NCBI GenBank assembly: GCA_026713385.1
Contig: JAPOOP010000439.1
Coordinates: 1 to 33,219, forward strand
From: Candidatus Poribacteria bacterium
GTDB lineage: Bacteria; Poribacteria; WGA-4E; WGA-3G
Length of the DNA stretch: 33,219 nucleotides
Reading direction: 5' to 3'
Shown here: piece by piece, positions 2,242 to 32,590 of the stretch
How positions within the stretch are numbered: the first letter of the stretch is position 1
Layout of the letters: each line of letters opens with the position of its first letter
The notes under the pieces: model-generated
What the model was told of the DNA's origin: nothing
Seen by the model: only the letters and a program-made list of their open reading frames with translations
Databases searched by the model: none
Made by a program: the position numbers and the translations under genes

Positions 2242-3219
2242 ATGTACGGTAAACTCGGAGAAGTAGTACTGAAAACAGAAGAACGGATGGAAGTCGGTGT
2301 GATTACTGCCCCAGATGCATCTCATGCCGAAGAGATGAAACAATTCCTTGGACATAAGCCTGGCAACTACAAGTGGCATATTGAGCGGTGTGTCATGGAG
2401 GTGCTTGATGCGTTAGAAACCCGTTTCTATGTCGGTAAACTTGACGGAGAGGTGATTACCAACATCATGACAGTCGAGTACGAAGGGGTCGGTATTTTAG
2501 GACACGTTTTCACGCTCCCGCAACAGCGGAGGAAGGGTGCGTGCAAAGGCGTGATGGCGTATCAGATGGAGGATTTCCGACAGCGGTCAGGTGGCGCGCT
2601 CTATCTCGGTACAGGCTACAATAGCCCTCCGTATTACATCTACCATAGTTTCGGATTTGAGAGTGTCTATCCAGAATCCGGTTTTATGAAGTATCAGGTG
2701 GGTGAAGACTTTGAGGAACGTTACTTCGCGCCTGCGCCTGCACACCCGAAGCCCGTGGAATGGCACGATTGGCCGAAAGTCACGGCGTTATCGGGCATTG
2801 TCGGATGGGACGCACTGCGGAGCCTTGCGTGGAATGTTTACGGTCCCACGAACCTTGAAGGCGGTTTTCTCAGTTTCAAACACGATTTGGAAACCGAAGA
2901 TACCTACGCTGATGCGAAGTTACTAATTTCATCAGGTGGTGCGATCGTGGGATGGGCAACTGTCGGTCGCGATGCGCGCTGGCGACCCGTAACTGCGGTG
3001 TTGGATCTCTTCTTTCATCCGAATTTTGCGGACGCTGTTCCTGCGTTACTTTCAGCCGTAGCGTTTCCTGACGCAAAGGTTCAGTGTTATGTTGATAGTG
3101 GTGCTGAGAAGAAGGCGGCGGTTTTAGAAACCGCAGGCTTTACCTGCGAAGGTCGGTTCAAAGACCAATTCACAGCCGGCGGACAGCATTACGATGTTCT
3201 GGTGTTCGCACGGGCGTGA
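2242..3219 (+). CDS. Tandem GNAT-family N-acetyltransferase
   Basis: 325 residues from the ATG at 2242. A GTG two codons upstream is possible, but AGAGG at 2232-2236 favours the ATG. The N-terminal half shows the GNAT fold signature: LGHVFTLPQQRRKGACKGVM is beta-4 with the Q/R-x-x-G-x-G/A acetyl-CoA pyrophosphate loop, followed by ALYLGTGYNSPPYYIYHSFG with the Y-x-x-x-GF segment. The C-terminal half (~200-325) looks like a second, degenerate GNAT domain ending in KKAAVLETAGFTCEGRFKDQ. The substrate cannot be predicted. Bidomain GNATs acetylate small molecules or proteins, and in many the second domain is structural. It is transcribed divergently from ndk and appears to be a single-gene unit, separated from the following operon by a promoter. 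Confidence 0.85.
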   Translation: MYGKLGEVVLKTEERMEVGVITAPDASHAEEMKQFLGHKPGNYKWHIERCVMEVLDALETRFYVGKLDGEVITNIMTVEYEGVGILGHVFTLPQQRRKGACKGVMAYQMEDFRQRSGGALYLGTGYNSPPYYIYHSFGFESVYPESGFMKYQVGEDFEERYFAPAPAHPKPVEWHDWPKVTALSGIVGWDALRSLAWNVYGPTNLEGGFLSFKHDLETEDTYADAKLLISSGGAIVGWATVGRDARWRPVTAVLDLFFHPNFADAVPALLSAVAFPDAKVQCYVDSGAEKKAAVLETAGFTCEGRFKDQFTAGGQHYDVLVFARA

Positions 3220-13701: not shown

Positions 13702-14820
13702 ATGAAACTTCAATCACTCCCAAAACTCCGGCCTATCACGAAACTGTCTCCTACAATGTTTGCTACCTTACAACAGTGTCCACTGCAAGCTGGACTTCGC
13801 CAAGTAAAAGCACAGCGGACGACCAGAAGTTCAACAGCTGCCCTGTTGGGCACCATCGTACATCGCGTTCTAGAAAAAGCAGGTTCAATAAATAAGGACA
13901 GCGCGGACTTAAGAACTCAAGCAGAAGCAATATGGGATAAGGCTGTAGAGCAAATGGAGGAAGATTTACAGACTTCGCCTCTTGATAAGTATTTACTACC
14001 GATTAGAAAGTGGAGGAAATTCTTCGTATTGCAACAGCGAACCCTTCGCCGATGTGAAGAAATCGCATCAAGTCAGGGTATATCTGAAACACAGGTAATT
14101 GCAAGTGAACGTAGATTCGATAGTGTCAGAAGTGGATTTACTGGTAAACCTGATCTTATCCTCCGGCGAGCAAATGGTCTCGTGATTATCGACTATAAGA
14201 GTGGTGAACTCCCCGATGATCCGCAAATCCGAGAAGAGAAAATTGAACCATGGCAACAGCAAATTTTGATTTACGCTTCAATGATCGAGGAGGAATTTGG
14301 AGAATGGCCTGTAGACGGTAAAATCAGATTGTTGAATAAAGAGGTGATCCCCATCGTAATTGATCCACGAGAAGTGAAGGACATAAGGCAGACGGCTCAG
14401 GAATTAAGAGAAGAATATAACACAAAAATTAAGGCAGGAGTAACGCATTCAGAATTGGCACAATATTCTGTTGATAATTGTAGATTCTGCGAATTTAAAG
14501 GAGCTTGCAACACATTCTGGAAAGAGAATCCGCAACCGATTCCAGAAACAGATGAGTACGGATGTTTGAGCGGTCAAGTCTTAAAAGTTACAACCGGTAA
14601 AGGTAGGAACAGTTCTATGGCGATTATATGTGAAAAATCGGATGGAAGTTCACAGGAATGGCAGATTTCAAATCTATCAACCGAGCAATTTGGAAATTTA
14701 GAAGAATTGAAGCAAGGAACTCTTGTTCGGTTGCTCAATTTTAAAATAGAATCTGATGAATCCTACCGAGCAAAACCGACTCAGACTTCTGTAATTTGGG
14801 AAGTTCCAGTGGGTTTGTGA
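13702..14820 (+). CDS. Cas4/RecB-like PD-(D/E)XK nuclease with iron-sulphur cysteines and a C-terminal extension
   Basis: 372 residues, starting 1 base after the helicase stop. The nuclease core is clear: LLGTIVHRVLE (H54), GKPDLIL (D151), VIIDYKSG (D164 and K166, the D-x-K pair) and the QQILIY Q-x3-Y motif (Q187, Y191). C26 near the N-terminus, with C260, C263 and C269 near the end of the core (CRFCEFKGAC), gives the four-cysteine 4Fe-4S arrangement seen in Cas4, AddB and related exonucleases. After residue ~285 a ~90-residue beta-rich domain follows (CLSGQVLKVTTGKGRNSSMA to the end) that could be an OB-like nucleic-acid-binding fold. The family cleaves or resects DNA, often 5'-3' on single strands. 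Here it is the likely effector of the helicase operon. No cas1/cas2 is nearby, so a CRISPR role is unlikely. Confidence 0.92.
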   Translation: MKLQSLPKLRPITKLSPTMFATLQQCPLQAGLRQVKAQRTTRSSTAALLGTIVHRVLEKAGSINKDSADLRTQAEAIWDKAVEQMEEDLQTSPLDKYLLPIRKWRKFFVLQQRTLRRCEEIASSQGISETQVIASERRFDSVRSGFTGKPDLILRRANGLVIIDYKSGELPDDPQIREEKIEPWQQQILIYASMIEEEFGEWPVDGKIRLLNKEVIPIVIDPREVKDIRQTAQELREEYNTKIKAGVTHSELAQYSVDNCRFCEFKGACNTFWKENPQPIPETDEYGCLSGQVLKVTTGKGRNSSMAIICEKSDGSSQEWQISNLSTEQFGNLEELKQGTLVRLLNFKIESDESYRAKPTQTSVIWEVPVGL

Positions 14821-28082: not shown

Positions 28083-28565
28083 TCAATCGTTTTGTAATTT
28101 GTCAATCGCTTTATAAAGGTTAGCTGTCTCGATTCCTGCGATAGCGGCTTCAGACCCTTTGTTTCCTGCCTTGATGCCGGCGCGTTCAAGTGCTTGCTCT
28201 ATCGTATCTGTCGTGATGACACCGTAGATAACAGGAATGTTGGTGCTGGATGATATGTTGGCGATTCCCTTGGCACTTTCGGCGGCGACGTAATCGAAAT
28301 GTGGGGTCGCCCCTCGGATAACTGCACCGAGGCAGAGGACAGCGTCATAGCGTTCGCTCTCTGCGAGACGTTTGGCAATTCCAGGGATTTCAAAGGCACC
28401 GGGAGTCCAGAAAACATCGACAGTGTCCACGTCGACGCCGTGCCGTTTTAGGGCATCGAGTGCACCGGCGAGGAGTTTTTCGGTAACGAAACTATTAAAT
28501 CGGCTGACGACGATACCGAACGTGAGCCCTTCACCGAGGAGATGTCCATCATAAACGTTTGGCAT
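28083..28565 (-). CDS. ribH: 6,7-dimethyl-8-ribityllumazine synthase
   Basis: 160 residues from the ATG at 28565 ([13 protein letters not shown]). The longer frame adds 11 residues with no support, and AGGAG lies about 14 bases before the chosen ATG. It condenses 5-amino-6-ribitylamino-uracil with dihydroxybutanone phosphate. Conserved segments are [30 protein letters not shown] (ribityl pocket), [18 protein letters not shown] (phosphate loop and catalytic His) and [17 protein letters not shown]. The enzyme forms pentamers or 60-mer capsids. It lies ~150 bases after ribBA in the same orientation. Confidence 0.96.
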
Positions 28566-28716
28566 TTTTAAATTTATTGCTCCTGGGCTGCGCTCCACTT
28601 CGTTTTGCGCAGGTTTTCGTTTAATTCGCGACTGGGTTTGGGATCTGTTCGCGATTTATAACTTGGTTATGTTTTCTTAATTTTCCTTGTCGTTCGTTAC
28701 TGATGGTTCCCGATGG

Positions 28717-29949
28717 CTATTCCTCATGTAGGAGGAGGTGTCCGAGTTTGGAACGTTTTGTTTCTAAATATCGGCGGTTAAATGTATTCGGTTTGGTTTG
28801 CAACGGGACACGCTCAACGATTTCAAGCCCGTGTCCAGACAATCCTGTAACTTTTTTCGGGTTGTTTGTCATCAGTCGCATTTTTTGGACGCCTAAATCG
28901 GCTAATATTTGTGCACCGATGCCGTAGTCTCGCAAATCTGCGGGGAACCCCAGATGTTCATTCGCTTCGACGGTGTCTAATCCGTCGTTGTCTTGTAACT
29001 GATATGCCCTGAGTTTCCCCTTGAGTCCCATGCCTCTGCCCTCTTGTCGCATGTAGACGAGCGCGCCTCTGCCTTCTTTCTCAATGAGTTTCAGTGCGAT
29101 TTCGAGTTGTTCACCGCAATCGCATCTGAGCGAGCCAAAGACATCGCCGGTGAGACATTGTGAGTGCACACGGACTAAGAGTGGTGTTGGATCGGTGAGA
29201 TCACCTTTTGTGAGTGCAATATGCGTTTTATCTGCTTCAACGGTCTCACCCCCTGTATCGGTGCTTTCGTAGGCGAAAAGTTTGAACTCACCGTGTGCGG
29301 TTGGTATATCAGCGGTTGCGACGCGTCGGATTAGTGTCTCTGTCTCACGACGGTATGCGATGAGGTCGGCGATCGTGATAATTTTGAGTTGATGTTGCGC
29401 GGCGAACTCCATAAGTTCGGGGACGCGTGCCATGCTGCCGTCTTCGTTGAGTATCTCACAGAGGACCCCTGCGGGGTATAGTCCTGCCATTTGCGCTAAA
29501 TCGACGGTGGCTTCGGTATGCCCGGCGCGCCGGAGGACACCCCCTGGTTTCGCTTCTAAAGGAAAGATGTGTCCAGGGCGGACGAAATCTGAAGGGACAG
29601 CGTTAGTATCAACGAATTTCTGGATGGTATAGGCGCGTTCTTGTGCGGAGATGCCGGTTGTTACCTCTTTCGCATCGATAGTGACTGTGAAGGCGGTCTG
29701 CATTTGTGCCGTGTTGGCTGCTACCATCGGGTGGAGCTCGAGTTCGGCAAGCCGTTCTGAACTGGTAGGTAGGCATATCAGCCCCCTGCCGTATTTCGCC
29801 ATGAAATTTATCTGCTCTGCTGTTACCTTTTCAGCTGCCATGATGAGATCGCCTTCGTTTTCGCGATCGGGGTCATCAATGACGATTATCATTTCCCCGT
29901 TTTGGATTGCAGAGAGTGCTTCAGGAATGGTATTAAATGTATTTGACAT
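28717..29949 (-). CDS. ribBA: Bifunctional DHBP synthase / GTP cyclohydrolase II
   Basis: 410 residues from the ATG at 29949 ([20 protein letters not shown]). The frame is open further upstream, but that part runs into a direct repeat and is not RibB-like. The RibB half (1-~200) has [16 protein letters not shown] and the [14 protein letters not shown] segment of the active site. The RibA half (~205-400) has the zinc ligands C-x10-C-x-C in [19 protein letters not shown], the catalytic region [11 protein letters not shown] and DYGIGAQIL. It supplies both riboflavin precursors, from ribulose 5-phosphate and GTP. No good Shine-Dalgarno precedes the ATG, so translation may be weak or depend on A/U-rich leader contacts. 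Confidence 0.96.
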
Positions 29950-29955
29950 TTTTTT

Positions 29956-30120
29956 AATGATACGCCAAGCGTTAAATAGCACCTTATGTGATTTAACGGT
30001 TTCCACTTGAGGTTCGCCTGCCGCCGTTGTTGGCAGGCTTATAGCACCTTAAAAGTGATATAAGAAAACGGACAAATGATACGCCAAGCGTTAAATAGCA
30101 CCTTATGTGATTTAATGGTT
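29956..30120. repeat. Pair of 46-bp direct repeats in the ribE-ribBA spacer
   Basis: A 46-base block starting AATGATACGCCAAGCGTTAA occurs at 29956-30001 and again at 30075-30120 with a single base change (119-base period). A shortened third piece (TAGCACCTTA, ~30041-30050) and a hairpin GCCTGCC/GGCAGGC (30016-30038) lie between them. The first copy occupies the leader of ribBA, just before its start codon. Confidence 0.8.
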
Positions 30121-30129
30121 ATTGGTAAC

Positions 30130-30199
30130 AAGAGGAAACCTTTGTTAAACGAAAACCTCTTAACAATGACTGAAAGCTGAAAGGGTTGCGTAGCAACCC
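30130..30199 (+). repeat. Dispersed repeat and perfect hairpin upstream of ribBA
   Basis: CTTTGTTAAACG-AAAACCTCTT here matches the core in the C25 peptidase copy, followed by GAAAGCTGAAAG. The block is flanked by AAGAGG/CCTCTT inverted arms (30130-30161) and followed by GGGTTGC-GTA-GCAACCC (30183-30199), a perfect 7-bp hairpin with a three-base loop. Confidence 0.6.
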
Positions 30200-30213
30200 G
30201 TGCTGAAAACCAT

Positions 30214-30885
30214 TTAATCGATATAGCCGTGTTTCGCTAAAAAGTTCAAGTTAAGGGTTTCAGAAGAGGACTGTTTGCTCAACTCCGTCGTCTCTTCGCT
30301 ATTTTTTAACAGCGTTTCGAGATAACGCGCGACGATGTCGACTTCGAGGTTAACCTTAGCACCGTTCCGTTTCGTTCCGAGGGTCGTAACGTCCTTTGTA
30401 TGCGGTATCAGCGTGACTTCAAAGGCATCTGCGTGTACGTTTGATACAGTTAGACTGACACCGTCGATCGTGATGGATCCTTTGTAGGCGACATAGGGCT
30501 TGGTGGTGCGACTCATTGTAATCTGCATCACAGAGGCATCACCTTCATCTTTCCACGAGCGGATTGTCGCGACCGCATCAACGTGTCCGAGTACGAGATG
30601 TCCACCCAATCTATCGCTAAGCCGAAGTGAACGCTCTAAATTGACGTGATCTCCAACCTTCCGTTCACCCAAGGTTGTGCGGCGCAAGGTCTCAGCGGAT
30701 GCATCCACAGTGAATGTTTCCGATGTAAGGAAACGGATCGTAAGACAGGCACCGTCAATGGCGATGCTGTCGCCGACTTTCGCATCACTGAGAACGTCAT
30801 TCGCCTGAATCTCAAGAATCGCATCTTGCGGTTTAACCTGAATGCTTTTAATCGTTCCGAGTTCCTCGACGATCCCGGTGAACAT
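30214..30885 (-). CDS. ribE: Riboflavin synthase, alpha subunit
   Basis: 223 residues. Dismutates two lumazine molecules into riboflavin and the pyrimidine. It has the two lumazine-binding barrels: the first starts MFTGIVEELGTIKSI, with IDGACLTI and DASAETLRRTTLG; the second starts near GGHLVLGHVDAVATI, with ITIDGVSLTVSNV. The MFTGIVEE start is diagnostic. The last ~20 residues are a serine-rich tail beyond the usual helix. The gene starts 1 base after the ribD stop, so the two are cotranslated. About 265 bases of repeat-rich spacer separate it from ribBA. Confidence 0.96.
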   Translation of the reverse strand: MFTGIVEELGTIKSIQVKPQDAILEIQANDVLSDAKVGDSIAIDGACLTIRFLTSETFTVDASAETLRRTTLGERKVGDHVNLERSLRLSDRLGGHLVLGHVDAVATIRSWKDEGDASVMQITMSRTTKPYVAYKGSITIDGVSLTVSNVHADAFEVTLIPHTKDVTTLGTKRNGAKVNLEVDIVARYLETLLKNSEETTELSKQSSSETLNLNFLAKHGYID

Positions 30886-30886
30886 G

Positions 30887-31987
30887 CTATAGATACCCCT
30901 CGATTAGAAAGTCGTGATCAGGGATAGGTGTGACGCTGACTCTGCGTAGGTTCGCTGCCTCGGTTAAACTGCGGATTCCTATACCACCAATCGGTCCAGG
31001 TGCATTCTGTCCACCAATGAGTTTAGGTGCGATGAAACACATAACCTTATCCACGATACCTGCGGCGAGGGCTGAGGCATTGATTTCGCTACCGCCTTCT
31101 ATTAAGACGCTTGTTATCTCATGTTTGCCTAATATTTCCATCAAACTCTTAAAACAGACCTTACCGTGCGCGGCTGGAACGGTTATCACCGCTGCACCAG
31201 TCTTTTCGAGGACATCGACGTTTTCAGAGGGTGCCTCTGGTGTTACTGCCACGATAACGTCTGCGTCGCTTTCGGCGTTGAAAATGCGTGCATCCGTGTG
31301 CGTTCTCCCGCGTGAATCTAACACAATCCGGATTGCGTCCTGTCCCTCTTTGTCCTGAAGCCGCGTCGTGAGTGCCGGGTTATCGCGTGCGACTGTACCT
31401 CTACCGACGAGGATCGCATCTACTGCGTCCCGTACCTCATGTCCTCGTTGCCGTGATGCCTCGGACGTAATCCATTGCGATTCCCCAGAAGCGGTGGCGA
31501 TTTTCCCGTCGAGACTCATAGCGGTTTTGAGAATCACAAACGGTTTGCCGGTTTGAATGTATTTACGGTGTACCTCGTTTAGGTCTGATGCTTCTTGTTC
31601 GCAGATGCCTACATGGACGTTTATGCCAGTCTTTTGGAGTTGCTCGACTCCTTTACCGGCGACACTCGGATTCGGGTCAACCTCTGCGACGTAGACCTGC
31701 GCGATACCTGCGTGAATCAGTGCTTCTGTACAGGGCGGTGTTCGTCCCCAGTGGCAACACGGCTCAAGATTTGTGTAAAGCGTCGCGCCTTTGGCATCCT
31801 CACCAGCGGCGCTAAGCGCATGGATTTCGGCGTGTGGGGTTCCTGCTTTCTGGTGATACCCTTCACCGATAACTTTTCCATCTTTTACTATAACCGTGCC
31901 AACGAGAGGGTTGGGACTCGTGCGTCCTTTTGCTTGTCGTGCTAAATCCAGTGCACGTCGCATAAAGGCTATGTGTGTTTCGTCCAT
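30887..31987 (-). CDS. ribD: Bifunctional diaminohydroxyphosphoribosylaminopyrimidine deaminase / reductase
   Basis: 366 residues, the usual length. The N-terminal deaminase has the zinc site HAEIHAL and PCCHWGRTPPC (two cysteines). The C-terminal reductase has ILKTAMSLDGKIATASGESQ, ILVGRGTVARDNPALTTR and LIEGGSEINASALA. It carries out the second and third steps of riboflavin synthesis from the GTP product. It is the first gene of the rib operon, behind a sigma-70-like promoter with a short leader. No FMN riboswitch fits in the 76 bases between this start and the neighbouring stop codon. Confidence 0.96.
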   Translation of the reverse strand: MDETHIAFMRRALDLARQAKGRTSPNPLVGTVIVKDGKVIGEGYHQKAGTPHAEIHALSAAGEDAKGATLYTNLEPCCHWGRTPPCTEALIHAGIAQVYVAEVDPNPSVAGKGVEQLQKTGINVHVGICEQEASDLNEVHRKYIQTGKPFVILKTAMSLDGKIATASGESQWITSEASRQRGHEVRDAVDAILVGRGTVARDNPALTTRLQDKEGQDAIRIVLDSRGRTHTDARIFNAESDADVIVAVTPEAPSENVDVLEKTGAAVITVPAAHGKVCFKSLMEILGKHEITSVLIEGGSEINASALAAGIVDKVMCFIAPKLIGGQNAPGPIGGIGIRSLTEAANLRRVSVTPIPDHDFLIEGYL

Positions 31988-32063: not shown

Positions 32064-32561
32064 TTAAAGTGCGGCGACCTCTTTCAGAGATTCGAGGATT
32101 TCTGTCTGTTTTGGGAGGTCAAATTGATGCGAACCGATGTACATATATCTAATAGTCCCTGTTTTGTCAATGATAAATGTTGCTGGACGCGCGATGTTGT
32201 AAGCCTCTAAGCTGAGCCAGTGGTAGACACCGTAGCTTCTGATGACGTTCCGTGTTTTGTCTACCAGTAGCGGGAATGTGATGCCGTTTTTCTCGGCATA
32301 GCCTCGAAGTTCACGGGGCCACTGTCCAGCAATGGCGAGCGGGGTGGCTGTATATTCCGCGTAGCCTGCGACGTTTTCTTGCACAGCCGCCAACTGACGA
32401 CGGCTGTTCGGTCACCATGTCCCTCGGAAAAAGGTTAAGACGACGTGGTGCGTGTCCCGGTACGTTTCGAGCGATACTTCTCCTCGTTGATGTGATGGGA
32501 GCACAAACGACGGCGCAATATCGCCGATGTTGAGAACCTTGTTTTTGCGTGGCATGGGCAT
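32064..32561 (-). CDS. Peroxiredoxin/thioredoxin-fold protein with in-frame TGA at the catalytic Cys position (candidate selenoprotein)
   Basis: Read through the TGA at 32414-32412, this is one 165-residue AhpC/TSA-like protein. The order is VLNIGDIAPSFVLPSHQRG (start of the fold), VVLTFFRGTW, TGA (codon 50), then PNSRRQLAAVQENVAGYAEY, then a normal C-terminal half with ARPATFIIDKTGTIRYMY. Related proteins read F-x-RGxWCPxCRxQL, so the TGA falls exactly on the peroxidatic cysteine. The whole protein has no cysteine, so without selenocysteine it would have no redox centre. The other expected position is Ser (U-P-N-S), which would make it a one-Sec enzyme. A hairpin begins 4 bases after the TGA. 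Start codons at 32561 and 32555 are both possible. The alternative is a Cys-to-stop mutation or sequencing error, but the downstream frame is intact to its stop. Confidence 0.8.
32383..32407 (-). promoter_or_regulatory. SECIS-like hairpin just after the in-frame TGA
   Basis: On the minus strand ACAGCCG (32407-32401) and CGGCTGT (32389-32383) form a perfect 7-bp stem enclosing UCGUCAGUUGG. U-G and C-G closing pairs could reduce the loop to GUCAGUU, with a G in first position as in bacterial SECIS loops. The stem begins 4 bases past the TGA, so the loop lies about 13 bases from it, shorter than in the E. coli fdhF element. It is plausible but not proven. Confidence 0.45.
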
Positions 32562-32590
32562 ACTGTATCAAAAAGTGCGGTGCATGTCAA
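32562..32590 (-). promoter_or_regulatory. Promoter abutting the candidate selenoprotein start (possible leaderless mRNA)
   Basis: On the minus strand a perfect TTGACA (32590-32585), a 17-base spacer and TACAGT (32567-32562) end directly at the ATG at 32561. The predicted start of transcription is about 32555, which is the A of the second in-frame ATG. No Shine-Dalgarno is seen, so the mRNA may be leaderless. Confidence 0.4.

Follow-up and report, generated by a model that had tools for sequence, protein, structure and literature searches.

Several kinds of peroxiredoxin (Prx)-like selenoprotein have been described in bacteria. The nearest to the gene treated here is the UxxS Prx-like selenoprotein (cd02970) of the Olavius algarvensis delta-symbiont, MDX2448127.1, which appears in Table 1 of PMC13188914 and is traced, through that paper, to Zhang and Gladyshev (2007). 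The same paper also lists UxxC Prx-like and TxxU Prx selenoprotein families. The Prx-like thiol:disulfide oxidoreductase selenoproteins (PF00578, UxxC/UxxU; PMC13188914) keep a second Cys or selenocysteine (Sec, U), and the canonical Sec-peroxiredoxins (TxxU, e.g., PrxU) have Sec, their presumed catalytic residue, at the C of PxxxTxxC. As for sponge symbionts, SelA and SelB have been reported to co-occur in most symbiont bins (PMC5649159). Our literature search found no paper that joins Poribacteria and selenoprotein.

Here, we analyse a 33,219-nucleotide contig of Candidatus Poribacteria (hereafter, the window), in which an apparently stop-broken gene almost certainly reflects Sec insertion into a small antioxidant-type enzyme. 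We infer with high confidence that the gene at 32555–32064 on the minus strand is a selenoprotein gene whose TGA is read as Sec. By its motif, a single Sec in UxxS within a Prx-like domain, the gene appears to fit the known UxxS Prx-like kind. The Olavius protein is likewise AhpC/TSA-related, with a single Sec in UxxS, a likeness drawn by motif, whereas the poribacterial protein comes from another phylum, is free of Cys in the clade of the window, and is encoded beside riboflavin genes. With the UxxC/UxxU oxidoreductases it shares the fold family and the position of Sec in F-Y/F-R-G-x-W-U, but it has Ser where these keep the second Cys or Sec. With the TxxU proteins it shares the peroxiredoxin fold; however, Ser51 stands at the C of PxxxTxxC and the predicted Sec three residues earlier. 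The closest solved folds are those of Mycobacterium tuberculosis AhpE (a 1-Cys Prx) and archaeal Bcp4/PrxQ, which are Cys enzymes with PxxxT/SxxC and share about 25–28% identity with the window protein.

An in-frame TGA and its conservation

The source genome (G000) is a Candidatus Poribacteria metagenome-assembled genome (MAG) of 749 contigs, estimated to be 89% complete. When TGA is translated as U, the gene (32064–32555, minus strand) encodes 163 residues, running from MPRKNK through FFRGTWUPNSRRQL to KEVAAL and a TAA stop. Its one internal TGA, at 32412–32414 (32414–32412 as read on the minus strand), corresponds to a predicted Sec48 in FRGTWUPNS. The original prediction began the protein at 32561, with 165 residues; the start is now placed at the ATG at 32555, because this ATG, the MPRKNK N-terminus and the upstream promoter are kept in relatives. 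Two of its other statements hold for the revised protein, namely that there is no Cys in the translated sequence and that a single AhpC/TSA frame spans the TGA. The read-through translation matches PF00578 over profile positions 1–124 of 124 with 97 bits (gathering cut-off 26); the segment downstream of the TGA by itself scores 52 bits. Among the NCBIfam models none scored above its cut-off, the best being ResA and Bcp-like, and an Rfam scan of the locus gave chance snoRNA-like matches only.

Homologues were sought with patterns from the window protein in one genome per species, across 84,980 species. All 47 close homologues are poribacterial, with TGA at the same codon in 46 and TGT in one (L040), and the sole match from outside the phylum is a weak thioredoxin-like one. 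Ten further sequences from two more families (54–67% identity) also carry the TGA. In a codon alignment of 59 orthologues (54–91% identity), the codon is TGA in 58 and TGT in one, and (U/C)PNS is invariant. Of 85 poribacterial genomes searched with a profile, 67 carry the gene, and TGA is present in every match except that of one genome (G051). Both in the aligned orthologues (58/59) and across the phylum (66/67), the position of the TGA is conserved far beyond chance. No relative was found in viral contigs. Poribacteria are mostly sponge-associated, and this phylum-wide, nearly fixed use of Sec extends the known range of selenium biology among such bacteria.

Ordinary ORF calling yields a 109-aa ORF with a TTG start after the TGA (32064–32393, minus strand), which lacks the active site. 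Taken at face value, this ORF favours the reading of the TGA as a true stop or an inactivating mutation, which would leave either a pseudogene or a pair of short ORFs (47 aa and the 109-aa TTG ORF). We consider this very improbable: besides the retention of the TGA throughout the phylum, the internal signals described below are frozen at the synonymous level, a Sec/Cys pair exists, and purifying selection is equal on both sides of the TGA (median dN/dS of 0.093 before and 0.082 after it, with dS near saturation in many pairs). The frame of the relatives past the TGA is intact rather than degraded. Less probable still is a TGC or TGT codon misread through faulty sequencing or assembly. The single Cys form shows how an error-free Cys gene would look, but dozens of MAGs that were assembled independently, some of them single-contig genomes, have TGA at this codon, so an error at 32412–32414 is excluded. 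The conservation of the TGA across relatives, combined with the equal dN/dS, therefore excludes both the pseudogene and the sequencing error. Standard annotation loses the active site of the enzyme, so that poribacterial gene catalogues are likely to omit this protein and its paralogues or to list them in truncated form.

The Cys/Sec pairs that the original prediction proposed looking for among homologues are found in two forms: Cys at the same position in distant homologues, and the TGT of L040 (CATQHZ010000001.1, 5001–5492), a natural Cys form. In the tree, L040 is nested among Sec forms and is grouped with one of them, L041, with a support of 0.997; it also keeps the SECIS codons after its Cys. 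From this nesting and this retention, L040 is probably a recent replacement of Sec by Cys. Other Prx-like genes with a TGA are still present in G051, the presumed genome counterpart of L040, and the Cys form is therefore not attributable to loss of the Sec trait. A natural Sec-to-Cys change in which the SECIS is retained offers material for study. It should be mentioned that L040 lacks the close link to ribD described below.

Sec machinery and the predicted SECIS element

The source genome encodes a tRNA-Sec (selC; anticodon UCA, 78.7 bits) directly after selB. Like selC, the genes selB (341.5 bits) and selD (359.8 bits) are complete and score above their cut-offs, and selD has an in-frame TGA of its own, in CAGUASK. 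The selA gene is an N-terminal fragment cut by the contig end; among the 20 relatives in which it was sought, 19 have a complete copy. The gene thus has what is looked for in a bacterial selenoprotein, that is, an in-frame UGA in a conserved frame, Cys in homologues, and selA, selB, selC and selD in the genome, with selA complete only in relatives. The selenoprotein reading of the original prediction is accordingly supported on the three points on which it had been staked, namely the sel genes, the frame of the relatives and the exclusion of a sequencing error. Specific products can now also be set beside the hint given by SelA and SelB in sponge symbiont bins (PMC5649159).

Many of the paralogues encoded by these genomes have an in-frame TGA, as would be expected if UGA had been generally reassigned, e.g., to Trp or Cys. 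Against such a reassignment, TGA ends ordinary genes of the window, as had been claimed for the acetyltransferase (3217–3219) and nuclease (14818–14820) genes, and it is the terminal stop in 16 of 48 of the orthologues themselves. Moreover, nearly all of the extra TGAs that were read fall at active-site positions, and the complete Sec machinery is present. We regard the chance of a code change as negligible, and reject this reading together with those of a pseudogene and a sequencing error.

Signals for Sec insertion are seen within the coding sequence after the TGA. Codons 51–55 (32391–32405, minus strand; AGY CGN CGN CAG TTR), the predicted coding part of the SECIS, are synonymously frozen, with a codon diversity of 0–0.44 of expectation among the 59 orthologues. 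All 59 use AGY for Ser (37% elsewhere in these genes), CAG for Gln (52%) and TTR for Leu (28%), and both Arg codons are CGY in 58 of 59 each; the neighbouring codons of Arg44 and Gln59 show normal variation. Pair counts from the 59 sequences point to a bSECIS upper stem-loop at 32386–32401 (minus strand), with its apical AGUU loop 16 nt after the UGA. In this register, which is common to most sequences, the stem has up to 6 bp and its pairs are kept in 36–52 of the 59 sequences, although these counts are not independent events because the orthologues are related. The stem of this register alone has 6 bp and −7.7 kcal/mol in the window, and the predicted stem-loop agrees with the bSECIS model that PMC13188914 summarises. 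When folding was compared with synonymous resampling, the maximum of the gene lay in windows starting at codons 45–51 (mean z about −1.1).

The original prediction had pointed to a perfect 7-bp hairpin. This hairpin (ACAGCCG/CGGCTGT) exists and starts 4 nt after the TGA, but the conserved RNA element uses another stem register. The 7-bp stem is contained in an alternative, minimum-energy hairpin at 32383–32407 (minus strand; 10 bp, −16.8 kcal/mol in 42 nt), whose shifted register is not conserved in relatives, and we rejected it as the conserved element. Taken by itself, the energy of the hairpin hardly stands out from that of dinucleotide shuffles (z −1.6), and RNAalifold gave almost no energy over the whole set. 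The case for a SECIS therefore rests on the codon freeze, the position and the register counts.

Active site and proposed function

In an ungapped alignment with the AhpE and PrxQ/Bcp structures, FFRGTWUPNS stands in place of the canonical PxxxT/SxxC motif; Sec48 falls on the T/S of that motif and Ser51 on the peroxidatic Cys. Cys relatives from other phyla have an FYRGxWCPYC motif, in which the first Cys matches Sec48 and the second is Ser here. The predicted Sec48 thus stands first in a CxxC-like motif, a thioredoxin-type placement; in this protein the motif is UxxS. The earlier claim that the TGA replaces the Cys of F-R-G-x-W-C-P-x-C is borne out, as Sec48 matches the first Cys of FYRGxWCPxC. 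Since the second Cys is Ser, and it is this Ser51 that aligns with the peroxidatic Cys three residues after Sec48, the term “peroxidatic-cysteine position” proves to be inexact. An AlphaFold2 model (pLDDT 88.4) finds its best PDB matches in Bcp4 (TM 0.90) and AhpE (TM 0.86), and in this model helix 49–60 begins right after Sec48. In more distant orthologues, a C-terminal Cys156 might serve as the resolving residue; it is absent in the clade of the window.

We propose that Sec-tRNA(Sec), made by SelA and SelD, would be carried to the UGA by SelB, because SelB would also bind the hairpin just after the UGA. The ribosome would then insert Sec at residue 48 and proceed to the TAA. The predicted product is a small peroxiredoxin-fold protein, in which Sec48, lying in U-P-N-S (UxxS) immediately ahead of the helix that comes after the FFRGTW segment, would be the only sulfur or selenium redox residue. 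Its most likely role would be the reduction of peroxide or another electrophile in a one-Sec cycle, in which an external thiol partner would restore the selenolate after its oxidation, as no resolving Cys is present in the protein. A peroxidase-type function is the one we favour, with moderate confidence.

The absence of the canonical PxxxTxxC also makes a thiol-disulfide or repair role possible. A selenoprotein that acts as a thiol-disulfide oxidoreductase or repair enzyme, and not as a peroxidase, would agree with Sec standing first in the motif, which is the thioredoxin-type position; several of the Cys relatives are CxxC proteins annotated merely as peroxiredoxin-like. On the other hand, the best whole-fold matches are peroxiredoxins, including the 1-Cys AhpE, and a lone Sec without a partner Cys would be better suited to a one-Sec peroxide cycle than to dithiol exchange. 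We consider the oxidoreductase or repair role less likely than not, and retain the peroxidase-type function as the working view.

Riboflavin neighbourhood and other TGA-bearing paralogues

A conserved sigma-70 promoter, TTGACA-17-TACAGT, is predicted at 32562–32590 (minus strand), 6 nt before the ATG. Because the predicted promoter lies right before the ATG, a leaderless transcript is predicted, and the start at 32555 is supported. Of the 59 loci, 46 have a promoter-like site with the end of its −10 hexamer 6–7 nt before the ATG, and nearly all of these sites have TTGACA at a distance of 17 nt upstream; L040 and L041 are among the loci that lack the site. The next downstream gene is ribD (30887–31987, minus strand; an ORF call), followed by the rest of the riboflavin cluster, ribE, ribBA and ribH (28083–30885, minus strand; named from sequence resemblance). 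Where ribD was found, it lies on the same strand within 700 nt downstream in 42 of 45 loci, mostly at 70–110 nt, and the usual gene order is the selenoprotein gene followed by ribD-ribE-ribBA-ribH; ribD was not found near the gene in the loci of the f4 family or in L048. A second promoter-like site precedes ribD (32055–32028, minus strand), so co-transcription is not certain.

In-frame TGAs also occur in other Prx-like genes of the phylum. About a third of the PF00578 matches in six poribacterial genomes (36 of 105) contain an in-frame TGA. Only part of the 36 were read, with no clear read for L158, L162, L163 and L164; in nearly all of those read directly the TGA is at the active site, and they include UxxC forms, a type thus represented among the poribacterial paralogues, and two-domain fusions with a Sec per domain. 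Tandem Prx-like genes are found in G063:C12 (4036–6607; L133, L146 and L156), G046:C151 (L132 and L143) and G038:C20 (L130 and L153), each with an in-frame TGA at its active site, mostly as UxxC. These tandem genes suggest an expanded poribacterial complement of Sec-peroxiredoxins. We put forward, tentatively and at somewhat less than even confidence, a wider picture in which Poribacteria would be an undescribed selenoprotein-rich phylum (with tandem UxxC genes and two-Sec fusions) and the window gene would encode a Sec-only, one-Sec enzyme, leaderless in its expression and functionally tied to riboflavin synthesis.

Three proteins, L159 (G021), L147 (G030) and L148 (G028), consist of two fused Bcp-type peroxiredoxin domains with a TGA at the peroxidatic position of each (TGGU, TPGU), and are apparently two-Sec proteins. 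The genome of the window itself has a second Prx-like gene (L157, on G000:C230), with its TGA in FYRTGTUGDC.
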